Assembly (NCBI GenBank): GCA_019695335.1 | Contig: JAIBAF010000027.1 | Coordinates: forward strand, 1-45,434 | Origin: a bacterium | GTDB taxonomy: Bacteria; CLD3; SB21 | Direction: 5' to 3' | Length of the DNA: 45,434 nucleotides | Shown here: positions 30,025 through 37,971 of the stretch, piece by piece | Layout: the number at the start of each line of letters is the position of its first letter | Position numbering within the stretch: the first letter of the stretch is position 1 | The notes under the pieces: model-generated | Databases searched by the model: none | What the model saw: the letters and a program-made list of their open reading frames with translations, nothing else | What the model was told of the DNA's origin: nothing | Made by a program: the position numbers and the translations under genes

Positions 30025-30052
30025 AAAAAAAAGCGGAACATTGTTCCGCTCT
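30025..30052 (-). terminator. Factor-independent terminator after the DM9/FAMeT gene
   Basis: AGCGGAACA and TGTTCCGCT (30032-30050) form a hairpin with a very short loop; on the minus strand it runs into eight T residues. It lies about 40 bases past the stop of the gene at 30094. The remaining gap to 29924 is AT-rich with nothing recognised. Confidence 0.88.
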
Positions 30053-30093: not shown

Positions 30094-31353
30094 CTATTGT
30101 CCTCCGCTGACCACTCTGAACGAATGCCGTGCTTTCACTGTATAATCGGTACCGCTGAAATATCCGCGCACTTCGTAGTCGCCAGGATTAAATACAAATT
30201 CAAATTCGAGTTTGCCGGATTTTCCATTCGTATGTTGATAATTGCCCCATTCGGTATCCGGCGTGTTTTTTGGAACGATGTTGATCCATGCGCTCCCGTT
30301 GTCCGGAAAGTCATTGTATTCCACGACAACGGTTTGACCCGGGAAATATTCTTCACTTATCGTACGTACGTATACTCCGGCTGACTTTTCGCCGGCCAGC
30401 GGCATCGAACGAACATTGGAATATTCGATCGGTGTGTCCCAACTCGATACGGCAAAATACTTCACACTGCTGAGGAAATAATAATCTTTTGTTTCGATGA
30501 TCACATTTTGTCCGGCCGTAGTACCGTAACCGGCCGAAATAGTTCCTTTATCTTTATCGACCATCACCCAATAATCGTCCGCAACGCTCGGCTTGCGCAC
30601 GGCTCCGGCGGCTTCCTGGATCGATTGCCCCTGCGCGTTCCGGCGAATGACACTTTTGGTATTGCCCCAACCGCCGATAACAATTTCATACATCGGATCG
30701 ATGGTCGCCATCGCGTCTGAAATCGCAATGTGAATATCGTTTTTAGCGGCTGCTTTGAAAAGAATGGCCGATTTTCCCGGAACGGGTAATTGCCATTTTT
30801 CACTCCATGAAGTGTATTGACCTTGTTGTCCTTTTGACGAAAAACCTTCGGTCATCGACACGGAAGGTTTAACCGAAACTAAAATAAAAATTTTGTCCTT
30901 GAGAACGATTTCTGCGCCGCCGTAACCAATATTGCAAGCGTTTGCCCAAAGTTTTCCGGGATGCTCTCCGCCCATGTAAGCATGTTTGGCCACATATAGC
31001 GGGGTTTTGCTGGCATCATTGTACCCACCGAGTACGACATCGGTTGGCACTTTGCCTTTATATTCTACCCAGGCAGTAGAATTCGGCGGAGCGACCAGAA
31101 CCTCAAATCCTTGGTTAAAAGAATATTCCTTTCCACCCCAACCGATATTGCAAATACCGCCCGGAAGAATTTTGCCCGGATGAATTCCTCCTTTGAATGG
31201 GACGCGTCCGACGTACAACGGCTTTCCGTTTTCAGTTCCTCCAACAACGGCATCGGCCGGAATTGTTCCGGTATAAGGAACCCATTGCTGTGCACTTAAA
31301 CTTAAAACCCATGTCAGCGATAAAAAAATGCAAGATAGCCGAATAAGATTCAT
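30094..31353 (-). CDS. Secreted protein with two DM9 repeats, a FAMeT-type domain and a C-terminal Ig-like domain
   Basis: A 419-residue protein with a signal peptide (residues 1-22). Residues 24-89 and 95-160 are two DM9 (DUF3421) repeats: each has W-V-x-Y-x-G-x-[IV]-P-x-D, then P-L-Y-V, G-x-H-P-G-K and C-N-I-G-[WY]-G-G. Residues about 175-310 match the domain called farnesoic acid O-methyltransferase: FKAAAKNDIHIAIS, YEIVIGGWGNTKSVIRR, YWVMVDKDKGTIS and YFAVSSWDTPIEYSN. Residues 324-419 look like a small beta sandwich. DM9 with this domain is the layout of arthropod proteins, and DM9 proteins are mannose-binding lectins in bivalves. A secreted carbohydrate-binding role is likely; methyltransferase activity is not supported. 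A terminator follows. Confidence 0.85.
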   Translation of the reverse strand: MNLIRLSCIFLSLTWVLSLSAQQWVPYTGTIPADAVVGGTENGKPLYVGRVPFKGGIHPGKILPGGICNIGWGGKEYSFNQGFEVLVAPPNSTAWVEYKGKVPTDVVLGGYNDASKTPLYVAKHAYMGGEHPGKLWANACNIGYGGAEIVLKDKIFILVSVKPSVSMTEGFSSKGQQGQYTSWSEKWQLPVPGKSAILFKAAAKNDIHIAISDAMATIDPMYEIVIGGWGNTKSVIRRNAQGQSIQEAAGAVRKPSVADDYWVMVDKDKGTISAGYGTTAGQNVIIETKDYYFLSSVKYFAVSSWDTPIEYSNVRSMPLAGEKSAGVYVRTISEEYFPGQTVVVEYNDFPDNGSAWINIVPKNTPDTEWGNYQHTNGKSGKLEFEFVFNPGDYEVRGYFSGTDYTVKARHSFRVVSGGQ

Positions 31354-31749
31354 AAGAATCCTCCTGTTTTATAAAAATGGAAAGTGGCTTTACCAGTAAT
31401 TTTTTTTGATTTGTGCTCTTTAAGAAAACAGAAATTCAACTTCCAGGTTATAGAAGCTTATCTTTCGGCTCATTGATGAGCAAGGGATGGAAAAAAGGTA
31501 AGAACAAGGTCGCAAGCAATAACGCTAATCTTTGAGGTAAAAGCAAGGGTTTATTTTTGTACGATATGTGTATGTAGATACGAAATTTATGATTAGTCAT
31601 ATGCCATCATCGGAAAACATGACAAAAATCATGTTTTCCTCTGAAGTTGGTCATTGGAAAAGCATAGCCATCCTCTTATTTTTTTAAGAACTTAATGTAA
31701 TTTGCATTGGATTTTTCAGGACGTAACCACACGTCCGATTTAAAACGCT
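31354..31749. other. Long intergenic region upstream of the cbb3 cluster
   Basis: Nearly 400 bases without a convincing gene separate the DM9/FAMeT gene from ccoI. It contains two dyads (31588-31601 and 31612-31639) described separately, and an AT-rich stretch near 31670-31690. I could not assign a -35/-10 pair with confidence. Promoters for both divergent genes must lie here. Confidence 0.6.
31588..31639. promoter_or_regulatory. Two ATGA/TCAT dyads, candidate Crp/Fnr-type operators
   Basis: TATGA-N4-TCATA at 31588-31601 has the arm spacing of FNR sites (TTGAT-N4-ATCAA). GGAAAACATGA-N6-TCATGTTTTCC at 31612-31639 has 11-bp perfect arms and the N6 spacing of CRP-type sites. Both share the half-site ATGA/TCAT, and their centres are 31 bases apart, about three helical turns. 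The second has no U-tract, so it does not look like a terminator. They lie upstream of the cbb3 genes, whose cluster encodes an FNR-like regulator at 40586. Confidence 0.5.
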
Positions 31750-34248
31750 ATGAGTGACAGAAAACAAAGCGAAGTGATTTCTATTACCCAGACCGATGTG
31801 ACGGAGGTCGGAGTAAAAGATTCAACCGTCGCATGCTTTCATTGCGGTGAACGCTGTGAAGACTCGACGATTGCCGTTGCAGATAAAATTTTCTGTTGCA
31901 ATGGATGCCGCTGGGTGTATCAATTACTCGCCGACAACGACATGACCGACTATTATGCGTTTACCGAAGAAGGACGTATTACGCCGATAGCTTCCAAAGA
32001 CGTTCGATTCGAGTATCTCGACAATCCAACTATCCTGGAAAAAATCATCCAATTCCGCCAAGACAACTTTGCCCGAGTGACGCTTTTTCTCCCGCAAATT
32101 CATTGCAGCGCCTGTATCTGGCTTTTGGAAAATTTGACTAAACTCGACCTTGGTATTTTAAATTCTCAGGTTAATTTCTTACGCAAGGAAGTATCCCTTA
32201 CTTTCGACGAAACCAAAACGTCGCTGCGTGCCGTAGCCGAATTACTCGCGGCCATCGGATATACACCGGATTTTTCGCAAACCGAAAACGATCGTCCCAA
32301 TCGTGCAGTCGTCGAACGTTCTCTCTACATCAAGCTGGGTATTGCCGCTTTTTGTTTCGGCAACATCATGCTGATTGCTTTGCCTGAATATTTATCTGGC
32401 GGTACGTTGGATGCTGATTTCCGAGCATTTTTCGGATATCTCAGTATCGCATTGAGTGTGCCGGTGCTCTACAGCATAAGTGATTATTTCAAATCCGCTA
32501 TAACAAGTATTCGTCAAAAAGTTATTACCATGGATGTTCCTATTGCCATCGGTATTTCGACGTTAATTCTGCGCAGCATCTATGAAATTATCACGGCAAC
32601 CGGTTCGGGCTATCTCGATTCTCTCGCCGGCTTGGCATTTTTTTTACTACTTGGCAAAATTTTTCAGAAAAAAACGTTTCATTCATTATCTTTTGAGCGG
32701 AATTATCGTTCATACTTCCCTATCGCTGTCATCCGAAAAGAACCTTCCTCTGAAAAAAGCGTTCCTATCGACGATATCCGTATTGGCGACAAGCTTTTGA
32801 TACGTCATCACGAACTGATCCCTGCCGACAGCATTTTGCTGAGCGACGAAGCGTTGATCGATTATAGTTTTGTCACTGGAGAATCGGCGCCGGTACGCGT
32901 TACAAAAAACGAACGATTGTTTGCAGGCGGCAAACAAACCGGCGGCCTGATCGAGATTGAGGTCATCAAAGACGTGTCGCAAAGTTATCTGACACAGCTA
33001 TGGAATCAGGACATATTCATCCGCCACACAAGCCGCATTACAACAATTTCCGAAAAAGTTGCTCATTATTTCACGTTCAGTATTCTGGCTATTGCTTTAT
33101 TAACGGCAATCTTTTGGATTATTTACGAACCCTCATTGGCGGCGAATGTTTTTACATCCGTACTCATCGTCTCGTGTGGCTGCGGATTACCGTTATCCGT
33201 ACCGTTCACTTTTGGTACAACTTTACGCGTATTCGCCTCCAATAAATTATTTTTGAAAAATGAAAAAGTCGTTGAACGTTTGGCGACCGTCGACACAATG
33301 GTGTTCGACAAAACCGGGACGTTGACGCTGACGCAAACCGGCACACTGAAATATGAAGGCGTCGCATTGACACACGAAGAACAATCGCTGGTCAAATCGC
33401 TTGCCCGCCAGTCTACGCATCCGATGAGCCGCCGGATCTTCGAATCCTTGTCGGAAGTGGAACTACAGCCTATTGAAAATTTTGAAGAAATCCAGGGTTG
33501 CGGCGTGCAGGCCAAAATTCAAAACAAATTAATACAAATCGGTTCTTACCGTTGGATCAGCGGTAGTAATGAAATGAAGTCCCATGCGACCGACGCCGGT
33601 ACGCGCGTATTTGTTGCCATAAACTACATAGTGAAAGGTTGGTTTTCGATCGGATCGGAATATCGGCAAGGAGCAAAAGAATTAGCCGTGTCGCTGCCGG
33701 CATCCATACGGGTTGTTATACTCTCGGGCGACAATGATCGTGAAAGCGAATCACTGAAGGAACTTTTTGGTCATCGCGCCGAGATGAAATTTAATCAACT
33801 GCCGATCGACAAATTAAATTACGTGCGCCAGCTTCAAGCCGAAGGACATCACGTGATGATGATCGGCGACGGCCTTAACGATGCAGGCGCGTTAAAACAA
33901 AGCGACGTCGGTATCGCCATTACGGAAAATACGGCTTCATTTACGCCGAGCAGCGATGCCATTATGGAAACGAGCCAGTTAAAAACGTTACTTCGTTTTA
34001 TCACACTGGCCAAACGCAGCAAGAAAATTGTATACGCCGCGTTTGCACTCACATTGACTTATAATTTTATAGCGTTGAGTTTTGCAGTACAAGGTCTTCT
34101 CGCGCCGGTCATCGCGGCGGTCATTATGCCGATCAGCGCCATTTCTGTAGTCAGTTTCACCGTACTGGCTGTAACATGGTCAGCGAAAAAAAATAAACTC
34201 AATTCGATGGACGCTGTTGAGTCATCAGTTGTCAATCATACGAATTAA
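31750..34248 (+). CDS. ccoI: CcoI-like heavy-metal P-type ATPase (copper export for cbb3 assembly)
   Basis: An 832-residue P1B-type ATPase. An N-terminal metal-binding zone has CFHCGERC and CCNGC (Cys29, 32, 36, 49, 50, 53), as in the extra domain of CcoI/FixI. The HMA motif is HCSACIWLLE (Cys119, Cys122). The actuator loop is VTGESAPV (376-379), the phosphorylated Asp is in DKTGTLT (Asp520), an HP dipeptide follows in THPMSRR, and GDGLNDAGAL is the CcoI form of the hinge. The membrane metal site, CPC in copper pumps, reads C476-G-C478-G-L-P here. CcoI pumps copper to the periplasm for the oxidase. The gene lies six bases before ccoS, with AAAACGCT before its ATG and no strong ribosome site. 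Confidence 0.9.
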   Translation: MSDRKQSEVISITQTDVTEVGVKDSTVACFHCGERCEDSTIAVADKIFCCNGCRWVYQLLADNDMTDYYAFTEEGRITPIASKDVRFEYLDNPTILEKIIQFRQDNFARVTLFLPQIHCSACIWLLENLTKLDLGILNSQVNFLRKEVSLTFDETKTSLRAVAELLAAIGYTPDFSQTENDRPNRAVVERSLYIKLGIAAFCFGNIMLIALPEYLSGGTLDADFRAFFGYLSIALSVPVLYSISDYFKSAITSIRQKVITMDVPIAIGISTLILRSIYEIITATGSGYLDSLAGLAFFLLLGKIFQKKTFHSLSFERNYRSYFPIAVIRKEPSSEKSVPIDDIRIGDKLLIRHHELIPADSILLSDEALIDYSFVTGESAPVRVTKNERLFAGGKQTGGLIEIEVIKDVSQSYLTQLWNQDIFIRHTSRITTISEKVAHYFTFSILAIALLTAIFWIIYEPSLAANVFTSVLIVSCGCGLPLSVPFTFGTTLRVFASNKLFLKNEKVVERLATVDTMVFDKTGTLTLTQTGTLKYEGVALTHEEQSLVKSLARQSTHPMSRRIFESLSEVELQPIENFEEIQGCGVQAKIQNKLIQIGSYRWISGSNEMKSHATDAGTRVFVAINYIVKGWFSIGSEYRQGAKELAVSLPASIRVVILSGDNDRESESLKELFGHRAEMKFNQLPIDKLNYVRQLQAEGHHVMMIGDGLNDAGALKQSDVGIAITENTASFTPSSDAIMETSQLKTLLRFITLAKRSKKIVYAAFALTLTYNFIALSFAVQGLLAPVIAAVIMPISAISVVSFTVLAVTWSAKKNKLNSMDAVESSVVNHTN

Positions 34249-34442: not shown

Positions 34443-36611
34443 ATGGAGAAAGAATCCGTCGCCCGTAACGTCCAAGTTGCGGGTAACTTGCAAACGTTCA
34501 GTTACGACAATAACATCGTCCGCCTCTTCACGATTGCCACGATAGTATGGGGCGCCGTCGGTATGTTGGTCGGACTGATCATTGCAATTCAATTGTATTT
34601 GCCGGAGTTTAATTTCGGCATTCCTTACATTACGTTCAGCCGCCTCCGTCCGCTGCACACCAATGCCGTCATTTTTGCATTCGTCGGCAACGGTATTTTT
34701 ATGGGATTGTATTATTCCCTTCAGCGGCTGTGCAAAGCGCGAATGTTCAACGATACGTTGAGCCATTTGCATTTCTGGGGATGGCAACTCATTATTGTTG
34801 CGGCAGCCGTTACGCTTCCGCTCGGTATTACGACAAGTAAGGAATACGCAGAGCTCGAATGGCCAATTGATATTGCCATCGCGCTTGTTTGGATCGTTTT
34901 CGGCATTAACATGTTCGGCACGATCATCAAACGCCGCGAACGGCACATGTATGTCGCCATTTGGTTTTACATTGCGACATGGGTAACGGTGACGGTACTG
35001 CATGTTGTCAATTCGCTTGAATTACCTGTAAGCTGGACAAAAAGCTATTCCATATTTGCCGGCGTACAGGACGCATTGACACAATGGTGGTACGGTCATA
35101 ATGCCGTGGCCTTTTTCTTAACCACGCCTTATCTCGGACTGATGTATTACTTTATGCCCAAGGCTGCGAATCGACCGGTCTATTCGTACCGCCTTTCAAT
35201 CATTCACTTCTGGGCATTGATCTTTTTATATATCTGGGCGGGACCGCATCATTTGCTCTACACCTCATTACCTGACTGGGCTCAGTCACTCGGTACGGTT
35301 TTTTCTGTGATGTTGATCGCTCCTTCGTGGGGCGGCATGTTAAACGGGTTACTAACACTGCGCGGCGCATGGGATAAAGTTCGCGAAGAACCTGTGCTCA
35401 AATTTATGGTCGTTGCCATAACCGCGTATGGCATGGCGACGTTTGAAGGCCCGATGCTTTCCGTCAAGAGTATCAATGCGTTATCGCATTTCACCGACTG
35501 GACCATTGCCCACGTACATATCGGCGCATTGGGATGGAACGGTTTTCTGACGTTTGGTCTCGTTTACTGGCTGATCCCGCGTTTGTATAACACAAATCTT
35601 TATTCCAATAAACTGGCAAATGCTCATTTCTGGATCAGCTTCCTTGGAATTATTTTTTACGCCGTACCGATGTATTGGGCCGGCATTACCCAGGGATTGA
35701 TGTGGAAACAATTTACACCGGAAGGTTTTCTGCAATATCCGAATTTCCTCGAAACGGTTACCCAGATCATTCCGATGTATGTGATCCGTTCTATTGGCGG
35801 AACATTGTATTTCGCAGGGATTTTCGTATTATTCTACAATGTTTACAAAACCATTAAACAAGGAAAATTCGTTGCCAATGAAGAAGCACAGGCTCCTGCA
35901 TTAACGAATGAACACGGCGCTTCGTCCAATGGGCACTGGCATCATTGGATCGAGAAAAAACCCATTCCATTCCTCGTGGCTTCGCTCGTGGTGATTTTAG
36001 TCGGCGGAATTTTCGAATTGATACCGACATTCGTCGTAGAATCCAATATTCCAACCATTGCCAGCGTCAAACCGTACACGCCGCTCGAACTCGAAGGCCG
36101 TGACATTTATATCCGCGAAGGCTGTTATGTCTGCCATTCACAGATGGTTCGCCCCTTCCGATCGGAAGTTGAACGTTATGGAGGTTATCCGGATGCTTAT
36201 TCCAAAGCGGGCGAATTCGTGTACGACCATCCGTTCCAATGGGGTTCAAAACGCACCGGACCCGATCTGCATCGTATCGGCGGAAAATATCCGCATGCAT
36301 GGCATTACCATCATATGTTGGACCCAAGAACCATGTCGCCGGGATCGATCATGCCGCCTTACCCTTGGTTGAATGACAACACGCTCGATGTCTCGCTGAC
36401 GCCGGGCAAAATCCGCGCTATGCAAAAACTCGGTGTACCATACGAAGAAGGGTACGATCAGATTGCACAGCAAGAACTGGCTACGCAAGCGGAACAAATT
36501 GCGACTGAATTACAGCAGGCCGGTATTCCGATCACGTCCGATAAAGAAATTATTGCGTTGATTGCCTATTTACAACGCTTGGGAACCGATATTCGCGCAA
36601 CTCAGAAATAA
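34443..36611 (+). CDS. ccoNO: cbb3-type cytochrome c oxidase, fused CcoN-CcoO
   Basis: A 722-residue fusion of the catalytic subunit and the monoheme cytochrome subunit. Residues 1-480 are CcoN: a heme-ligand His in RPLHTNAVIFAF, the CuB site in WWYGHNAVAFFL, the Tyr of the YSYRLSIIHFW helix, the His pair in GPHHLLYT and the heme ligands in HVHIGALGWNG. After a linker and a membrane helix (about 500-530) comes CcoO, with its heme c site GCYVCHSQMVRPF (Cys561, Cys564, His565) and RTGPDLHRIGGKYPHAWHYHHMLDPR. The complex sits in the inner membrane and reduces oxygen with high affinity. CcoN-CcoO fusions are known in Bacteroidota. The start follows GGAGAAGGAG. Confidence 0.97.
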   Translation: MEKESVARNVQVAGNLQTFSYDNNIVRLFTIATIVWGAVGMLVGLIIAIQLYLPEFNFGIPYITFSRLRPLHTNAVIFAFVGNGIFMGLYYSLQRLCKARMFNDTLSHLHFWGWQLIIVAAAVTLPLGITTSKEYAELEWPIDIAIALVWIVFGINMFGTIIKRRERHMYVAIWFYIATWVTVTVLHVVNSLELPVSWTKSYSIFAGVQDALTQWWYGHNAVAFFLTTPYLGLMYYFMPKAANRPVYSYRLSIIHFWALIFLYIWAGPHHLLYTSLPDWAQSLGTVFSVMLIAPSWGGMLNGLLTLRGAWDKVREEPVLKFMVVAITAYGMATFEGPMLSVKSINALSHFTDWTIAHVHIGALGWNGFLTFGLVYWLIPRLYNTNLYSNKLANAHFWISFLGIIFYAVPMYWAGITQGLMWKQFTPEGFLQYPNFLETVTQIIPMYVIRSIGGTLYFAGIFVLFYNVYKTIKQGKFVANEEAQAPALTNEHGASSNGHWHHWIEKKPIPFLVASLVVILVGGIFELIPTFVVESNIPTIASVKPYTPLELEGRDIYIREGCYVCHSQMVRPFRSEVERYGGYPDAYSKAGEFVYDHPFQWGSKRTGPDLHRIGGKYPHAWHYHHMLDPRTMSPGSIMPPYPWLNDNTLDVSLTPGKIRAMQKLGVPYEEGYDQIAQQELATQAEQIATELQQAGIPITSDKEIIALIAYLQRLGTDIRATQK

Positions 36612-37474: not shown

Positions 37475-37533
37475 GCTGATAGAATAACCTTTGAATCTTT
37501 CAGAGGCTTAAGAAATTGAACAGGACGACTAAA

Positions 37534-37971
37534 ATGGAAGCACTTCATTATTATGACATCGTACACGACAGTTACTCACGATGCGCGATAAGGAAAAAAT
37601 TTTTCGACGATTTTTACGATATATTTATGAGCCGTTCTCCTCAAATCGCGTATATGTTTCGTAAGTCGGATATGGAAAAACAAAAAAAACTTTTGGACAA
37701 AGGCGTAACGATGATGATCATGTTTGCCGGCGGTAATGCCATCGGCAAAATCGCGTTGGATCATATTTCGAAAATTCACCGGCAGTTGAATGTGACGGAA
37801 GAATATTATGATTACTGGCTCGATAGCCTGCTTCAAACGCTAAAAAAACATGATCCGCAGTATAATTTTAAGCTTGAGAGAGCGTGGAAAGAAGTTATGG
37901 GCGCTGGAATCGAATATCTGCTGCACAATTCGAAATCACCCTCGCCTATGCCTATTAAAGGAAACGCATGA
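37534..37971 (+). CDS. Single-domain globin
   Basis: A 145-residue protein from ATG 37534 with AGGA upstream; a TTG at 37516 would be the alternative. The all-helical sequence fits the bacterial single-domain globin fold: FFDDFYDIFMSRSPQIAYMF covers the B and C helices, MEKQKKLLDKGV the E helix with Gln50 in the distal position, and HISKIHRQLNV the F helix with proximal His82, then EYYDYWLDSLLQTLKKHDP. It would bind heme and gases such as O2 or NO. It lies inside the cbb3 cluster between ccoP and ccoG and overlaps ccoG by four bases (ATGA). An NO-detoxifying, oxygen-sensing or heme-handling role is inferred from that position. Confidence 0.85.
   Translation: MEALHYYDIVHDSYSRCAIRKKFFDDFYDIFMSRSPQIAYMFRKSDMEKQKKLLDKGVTMMIMFAGGNAIGKIALDHISKIHRQLNVTEEYYDYWLDSLLQTLKKHDPQYNFKLERAWKEVMGAGIEYLLHNSKSPSPMPIKGNA

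Follow-up and report, generated by a model that had tools for sequence, protein, structure and literature searches.

The gene discussed here lies on the reverse strand of a bacterial contig that was analysed over its entire 45,434 nucleotides (the window), and it encodes, from an ATG start, a protein of 419 amino acids, with boundaries exactly as proposed in a first-pass annotation of this DNA. Two Pfam models recognize the protein, both far above chance: PF11901 (DM9; E 4.6e-28, 97.9 bits versus a cut-off of 26.2), which matches in two stretches over about residues 23-162, and PF12248 (Methyltransf_FA, or FAMeT; E 4.8e-22, 78.7-81 bits versus a cut-off of 24.2). The two DM9 repeats and the FAMeT domain of the first-pass annotation, which had named these very models for a profile search, are thereby borne out; Pfam finds nothing else in the protein, and no NCBIfam model matches it. 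The N-terminus, MNLIRLSCIFLSLTWVLSLSAQ, fits by eye a Sec signal peptide, as had been claimed, with no lipobox seen by eye near the cleavage site. The Ig-like domain proposed for the C-terminus agrees with an AlphaFold model of the last ~93 residues (pLDDT about 80), whose best Foldseek matches are beta sandwiches of the Ig/Fn3/MG type (alpha-2-macroglobulin MG domains and Fn3-type domains of glycosidases). Foldseek matches were counted for this domain alone, because model quality is low elsewhere: whether the whole protein or the DM9 pair was modelled (from an alignment of two sequences), pLDDT for DM9 and FAMeT was about 25-40. A hairpin followed by a T run downstream of the stop codon corresponds to the terminator that the gene had been said to possess, but as shuffled versions of the region contain a mean of 2 such sites, it is suggestive only. 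The gene is present in a single copy in its genome, and so is the Ig-like tail. The features are collected in Table 1.

Table 1. Features of the DM9-FAMeT gene and its immediate surroundings, in window coordinates
Feature	Position	Strand	Basis or remark
Intrinsic terminator-like site, 10-pair hairpin and T run	30030..30052	-	About 40 bases past the stop codon
DM9 x2 - FAMeT - Ig-like protein, export-type N-terminus	30094..31353	-	ORF and Pfam; intact in congener L013
Ig-like/Fn3-like C-terminal domain, residues 326-419	30097..30378	-	AlphaFold and Foldseek; common to all DM9 proteins of the bacterial family
Methyltransf_FA (FAMeT, PF12248) domain, residues 196-315	30409..30768	-	Pfam and profile comparison
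DM9 repeat 2, residues 94-162	30868..31074	-	Pfam, repeat tree, alignment; groups with repeats 2 and 4 of family members
Repeat 2 residues at mannose-contact positions: K134 (Lys114), Y144/G145 (Phe126/Ala127), E148 (Glu130)	30910..30954	-	Alignment; PMC4932603
DM9 repeat 1, residues 23-92	31078..31287	-	Pfam, repeat tree, alignment; groups with repeats 1 and 3 of family members
Repeat 1 residues at mannose-contact positions: E41 (Asp22), K61 (Lys43), W72/G73 (Phe55/Ala56), E76 (Glu59)	31126..31233	-	Alignment; PMC4932603, PMC5712788
Putative Sec-type signal peptide, residues 1-22 (hydrophobic core, ...SLSA/QQ)	31288..31353	-	Read from sequence
Spacer between this gene and the divergent ccoI-type copper ATPase gene (31750-34248 +)	31354..31749		ccoI is the first gene of the cbb3 oxidase cluster

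The other genes of the contig include a two-component system, a cbb3 oxidase cluster (ccoI-type ATPase, CcoN-CcoO fusion, CcoP, CcoG), a CRP-type regulator, and further bacterial genes, and the GC3 of the DM9 gene (0.46) compares with 0.38-0.54 for its neighbours. The intergenic arrangement with ccoI is the same in congener L026, and over the bacterial family the DM9 gene is located near the cbb3 cluster in two genera, at different ends of the cluster, and elsewhere in a third genus. No FNR box tying the gene to the cbb3 cluster is present in the shared intergenic region, and such sites are no more frequent over the window than expected by chance. Animal contamination of the assembly was considered and is ruled out by the bacterial neighbours, by the presence of the gene in six genomes, and by surroundings that are partly kept in two genera.

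Congener L013 (= G001, JABWBZ, 'MAG_43') likewise has the gene next to ccoI, with a product that is 82% identical, and comparison of the two gives a dN/dS of 0.135 overall, with 0.045 for DM9, 0.105 for FAMeT, 0.174 for the tail, and about 0.53 for the linker. The signal peptide is the fastest-changing part of the protein, at 45% identity to the nearest relative. Purifying selection thus acts on an intact gene, most strongly in DM9.

Two further features of the cbb3 cluster were observed along the way. The gene at 34443-36611 (+) encodes CcoN and CcoO (COX1 and FixO) as one fused protein of 722 amino acids, as is also the case in the relatives inspected. The stretch 37516-37971 (+), flanked by the ccoP- and ccoG-type genes, encodes a protein of globin type that barely passes the cut-off (PF00042, 23.7 bits), and a genome of a sister genus (G004) has no globin-type gene at this place.

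Sugar-contact positions in DM9 and the relatives of FAMeT

By sequence, the relatives of the protein in PDB are oyster lectin chains alone (the 5id8, 5idb, 5mh2, and 5mh3 groups). In the oyster lectin CGL1, mannose is held at the interfaces of the repeats, by Asp22, Lys43, Glu59, and the amide of Ala127, and by Lys114, Glu130, and the amide of Ala56 (PMC4932603), and binding is lost in the D22A and K43A mutants and little changed in H52A (PMC5712788). Lys43, Glu59, Lys114, and Glu130 are identical in all seven bacterial DM9 pairs aligned; in the same seven pairs Asp22 is always replaced by Glu, the Phe-Ala positions by Trp/Tyr-Gly, and His52 by Asn. This pattern of conservation argues for functional sugar pockets at the two interfaces, perhaps in modified form, and, as Asp22, essential in the oyster protein, is Glu in the bacterial copies, the sugar may be other than mannose. 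The geometry of the pocket is read from the alignment, given the low pLDDT of the DM9 model.

As to the second domain, the first-pass annotation described an arthropod-like, insect layout, and this description does not hold: in insects and crustaceans PF12248 is found upstream of DM9 (DUF3421), with one to four FAMeT domains ahead of DM9 (PMC10015273), and in the bacterial protein the order is reversed, the DM9 pair preceding PF12248. FAMeT-type domains are, moreover, not foreign to Bacteria. PF12248-type domains score over the cut-off in 89 of the 387 genomes around G381, with the best at 41.6 bits, in another bacterial group. The domain of the window scores higher on the Pfam model, at 81 bits versus 20-42 bits for the other bacterial domains found, a difference that may stem from animal ancestry or from the composition of the Pfam seed. 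In many genomes of one large bacterial group (L028-L047), small lipoprotein-like PF12248-type proteins with a GGW-N core are encoded that are apparently uncharacterised and are probably lipoproteins.

Profile comparison connects the FAMeT domain of the window to these bacterial lipoprotein-type domains with 94% probability (E 1e-7), the shared core consisting mostly of GGW-N and a Trp near the end. The lipoprotein-type proteins also match 3keto-disac_hyd (PF06439) above or near the cut-off, one of them matches Laminin_G_3 weakly, and their profile in turn finds the levanase CBM66 chains 4azz/4b1l/4b1m, in a weak match (E 0.007-0.01) that carries no information on ligand residues. The chain 4azz is the fructan-binding CBM66. 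FAMeT is thus probably a remote relative of bacterial ConA-like/CBM66-like lipoprotein domains, with a fold presumed to be of the same kind. The Pfam name of PF12248, along with the remote similarity of the bacterial relatives to PF06439, might instead point to an enzyme, a methyltransferase or one resembling 3-keto-disaccharide hydrolases; we judge such an activity quite improbable, as there is no reliable demonstration that FAMeT acts as a methyltransferase and the respective fly mutants have normal hormone levels (PMC10015273), and as the residues shared among relatives, mostly the GGW-N core and the terminal Trp, make up no obvious catalytic set. The present data suggest that the 'farnesoic acid methyltransferase' domain is misnamed, and that it would be no enzyme but a beta sandwich that binds glycans.

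Distribution, architectures, and origin of the family

DM9 is found in six of the seven genomes searched of the bacterial family to which the window belongs, the seventh being 85% complete. Outside the family, DM9 is not found over the cut-off in either of two wide, partly overlapping samples of about 380 other genomes each, nor in any of 147 genomes of one further class; two outside genomes with sub-threshold DM9-like matches (22-23 bits) were not counted. A 120-amino-acid protein with a part-DM9 match of 21-23 bits, below the cut-off, is encoded in two genomes of another family, f99 (L014, 1267-1629, and L015, 1504-1866); it ends in VPFNGKEYAQRNFVCLCVPK, is probably exported, and might be distantly related to the DM9 lectins, with a single repeat. 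No viral contig was matched by the complete protein, or by its DM9 pair or FAMeT domain used separately, and plasmid and phage searches gave no match either.

All the DM9 proteins of the family possess a DM9 pair and the same Ig-like tail, with three different middles: G003 encodes DM9x2 and the tail, G004-G006 encode DM9x4 and the tail, and DM9x2-FAMeT and the tail are encoded in the genus of the window only. In a tree of single repeats, repeats 1 and 3 separate from repeats 2 and 4 (100/100 for the latter group), and the DM9 pair is therefore the ancestral unit in the family, doubled in one genus. Likewise, since sister genera have DM9 and the same Ig-like tail with other middles, and FAMeT is limited to this one genus, FAMeT appears to have been inserted into a DM9 protein already resident in these bacteria. 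The direction of these changes, insertion rather than repeated loss, is most likely the one given here.

These architectures bear on the proposal, also made in the first-pass annotation, that the gene was transferred between animals and bacteria. The presence of both domains together in insects and crustaceans (PMC10015273) and the high Pfam score of the window's FAMeT could be taken to suggest that an entire DM9-FAMeT gene moved between arthropods and bacteria, but with the domain order reversed, with sister genera possessing the same DM9 pair and tail free of FAMeT, and with PF12248-type domains common in another bacterial group, a transfer of the whole gene finds no support, and we consider it extremely improbable.

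A transfer restricted to the DM9 pair, whichever its direction, is possible, as DM9 is absent from the bacteria sampled outside the family. DM9 is rare in Bacteria but already known there: it is mainly an animal domain, only occasionally found in prokaryotes (PMC2902509), and in Legionella species it has been catalogued as a 'eukaryotic motif' (PMC4256840). These reports, and the absence of over-cut-off DM9 from the outside samples, would fit a scenario in which the pair entered the ancestor of the family from a eukaryote, as a borrowed innate-immunity-type lectin, and was reshuffled later. We regard this scenario as a real possibility, if on balance a doubtful one. In the repeat tree the bacterial repeats group together, apart from CGL1 and on long branches, CGL1 (its sequence taken from the PDB alignment) being the one animal protein sampled; published opinion also favors the opposite direction, from prokaryotes to animals, in a paper that places DM9 in Legionella and Enterobacter as well (PMC5712788); and composition, family-wide presence, and the partly kept neighbourhood indicate that any transfer must be old. 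The scenario concerns origin, and it is compatible with the glycan-binding mechanism proposed below.

A wider and rather unlikely speculation is that the lineage domesticated an animal-type pattern-recognition lectin fold and built from it exported multivalent lectins of its own (DM9x2, DM9x4, and DM9x2-FAMeT); the combination of DM9 with FAMeT would then have arisen twice, independently, with the two domains cooperating on the same kind of glycan. In any event, whether DM9 is prokaryotic or animal in origin is disputed, and this intact bacterial family, in which three or more architectures occur, makes the question easier to test by means of a tree.

Putative function and comparison with known systems

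The interpretation we favor, and hold to be probable, is that of an exported protein that binds glycans multivalently, an old resident of the family that evolved through duplication of the DM9 pair and insertion of FAMeT. After export by Sec, the two DM9 repeats would be arranged with pseudo-two-fold symmetry, and each of the two repeat interfaces would form a sugar pocket, to which one repeat would contribute Lys and Glu and the other an aromatic residue and a main-chain amide, as in CGL1. A further surface for glycan binding may be provided by FAMeT, as a ConA/CBM66-like beta sandwich, and the Ig-like tail may serve as a spacer or in surface attachment. The target would most likely be a mannose-like or other polysaccharide, of the cell's own matrix or envelope or of neighbouring cells. 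On this account the DM9 pair would have been duplicated in one genus (DM9x4), and FAMeT would have been put between DM9 and the tail in the genus of the window.

The first-pass annotation suggested a secreted lectin for surface glycans, and a glycan-binding role is the one best supported. The C-terminus lacks a type IX tail, whether Por_Secre_tail (PF18962) or an NCBIfam sorting tail. Elsewhere in the genome (G000), 31 matches to PF18962 point to a sizeable type IX-type secretome, this protein not being among them, and export to the periplasm is thus expected, where the protein may stay or from where it may reach the surface. No glycan-related partner gene is present in the respiratory gene neighbourhood.

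A lectin directed at a host, or a part of a toxin, could also be imagined, given that DM9 forms the N-terminal part of fish natterins, where it is fused to aerolysin-type modules (PMC8402412), and that Legionella species possess DM9 proteins (PMC4256840). No aerolysin or other toxin domain is recognized in the protein by Pfam, however, the PADLOC defence library gives no match, and the neighbourhood is one of ordinary respiratory genes, all of which makes such a role very improbable. The glycan-binding protein that we favor instead is of limited practical interest, since both DM9 lectins and DM9 proteins of bacteria were known and its function is putative; what is new is the architecture in which these known lectin-type domains are combined.

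Precedents among Bacteria are the DM9 proteins of Legionella and Enterobacter, which share the presence of DM9 in a bacterium and were known before; they can be compared by description only, and the available parts of the respective papers mention no FAMeT/Ig combination (PMC4256840, PMC5712788). The arthropod FAMeT proteins (PF12248-DUF3421) resemble the bacterial protein in combining both domain families in one polypeptide, and the bacterial protein differs from them by the reversed order, by the export signal, and by the Ig-like tail. The bacterial lipoproteins of the PF12248/3keto-disac_hyd type possess a homologous domain, as judged by profile comparison, but they are mostly single-domain proteins without DM9, at 16-25% identity to the domain of the window in the members aligned. 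The levanase CBM66, a sugar-binding beta sandwich, is linked to FAMeT weakly, through the lipoprotein profile. A further close counterpart is CGL1 (CgDM9CP-1) of Crassostrea gigas, a mannose-specific lectin (PDB 5id8, 5mh1) that shares the two DM9 repeats, at 34% identity over the pair, and whose mannose-contact Lys/Glu and aromatic-plus-small positions are kept in the bacterial protein; it differs at Asp22 and His52, and it consists of the DM9 pair only, to which the bacterial protein adds a signal peptide, FAMeT, and an Ig-like domain.
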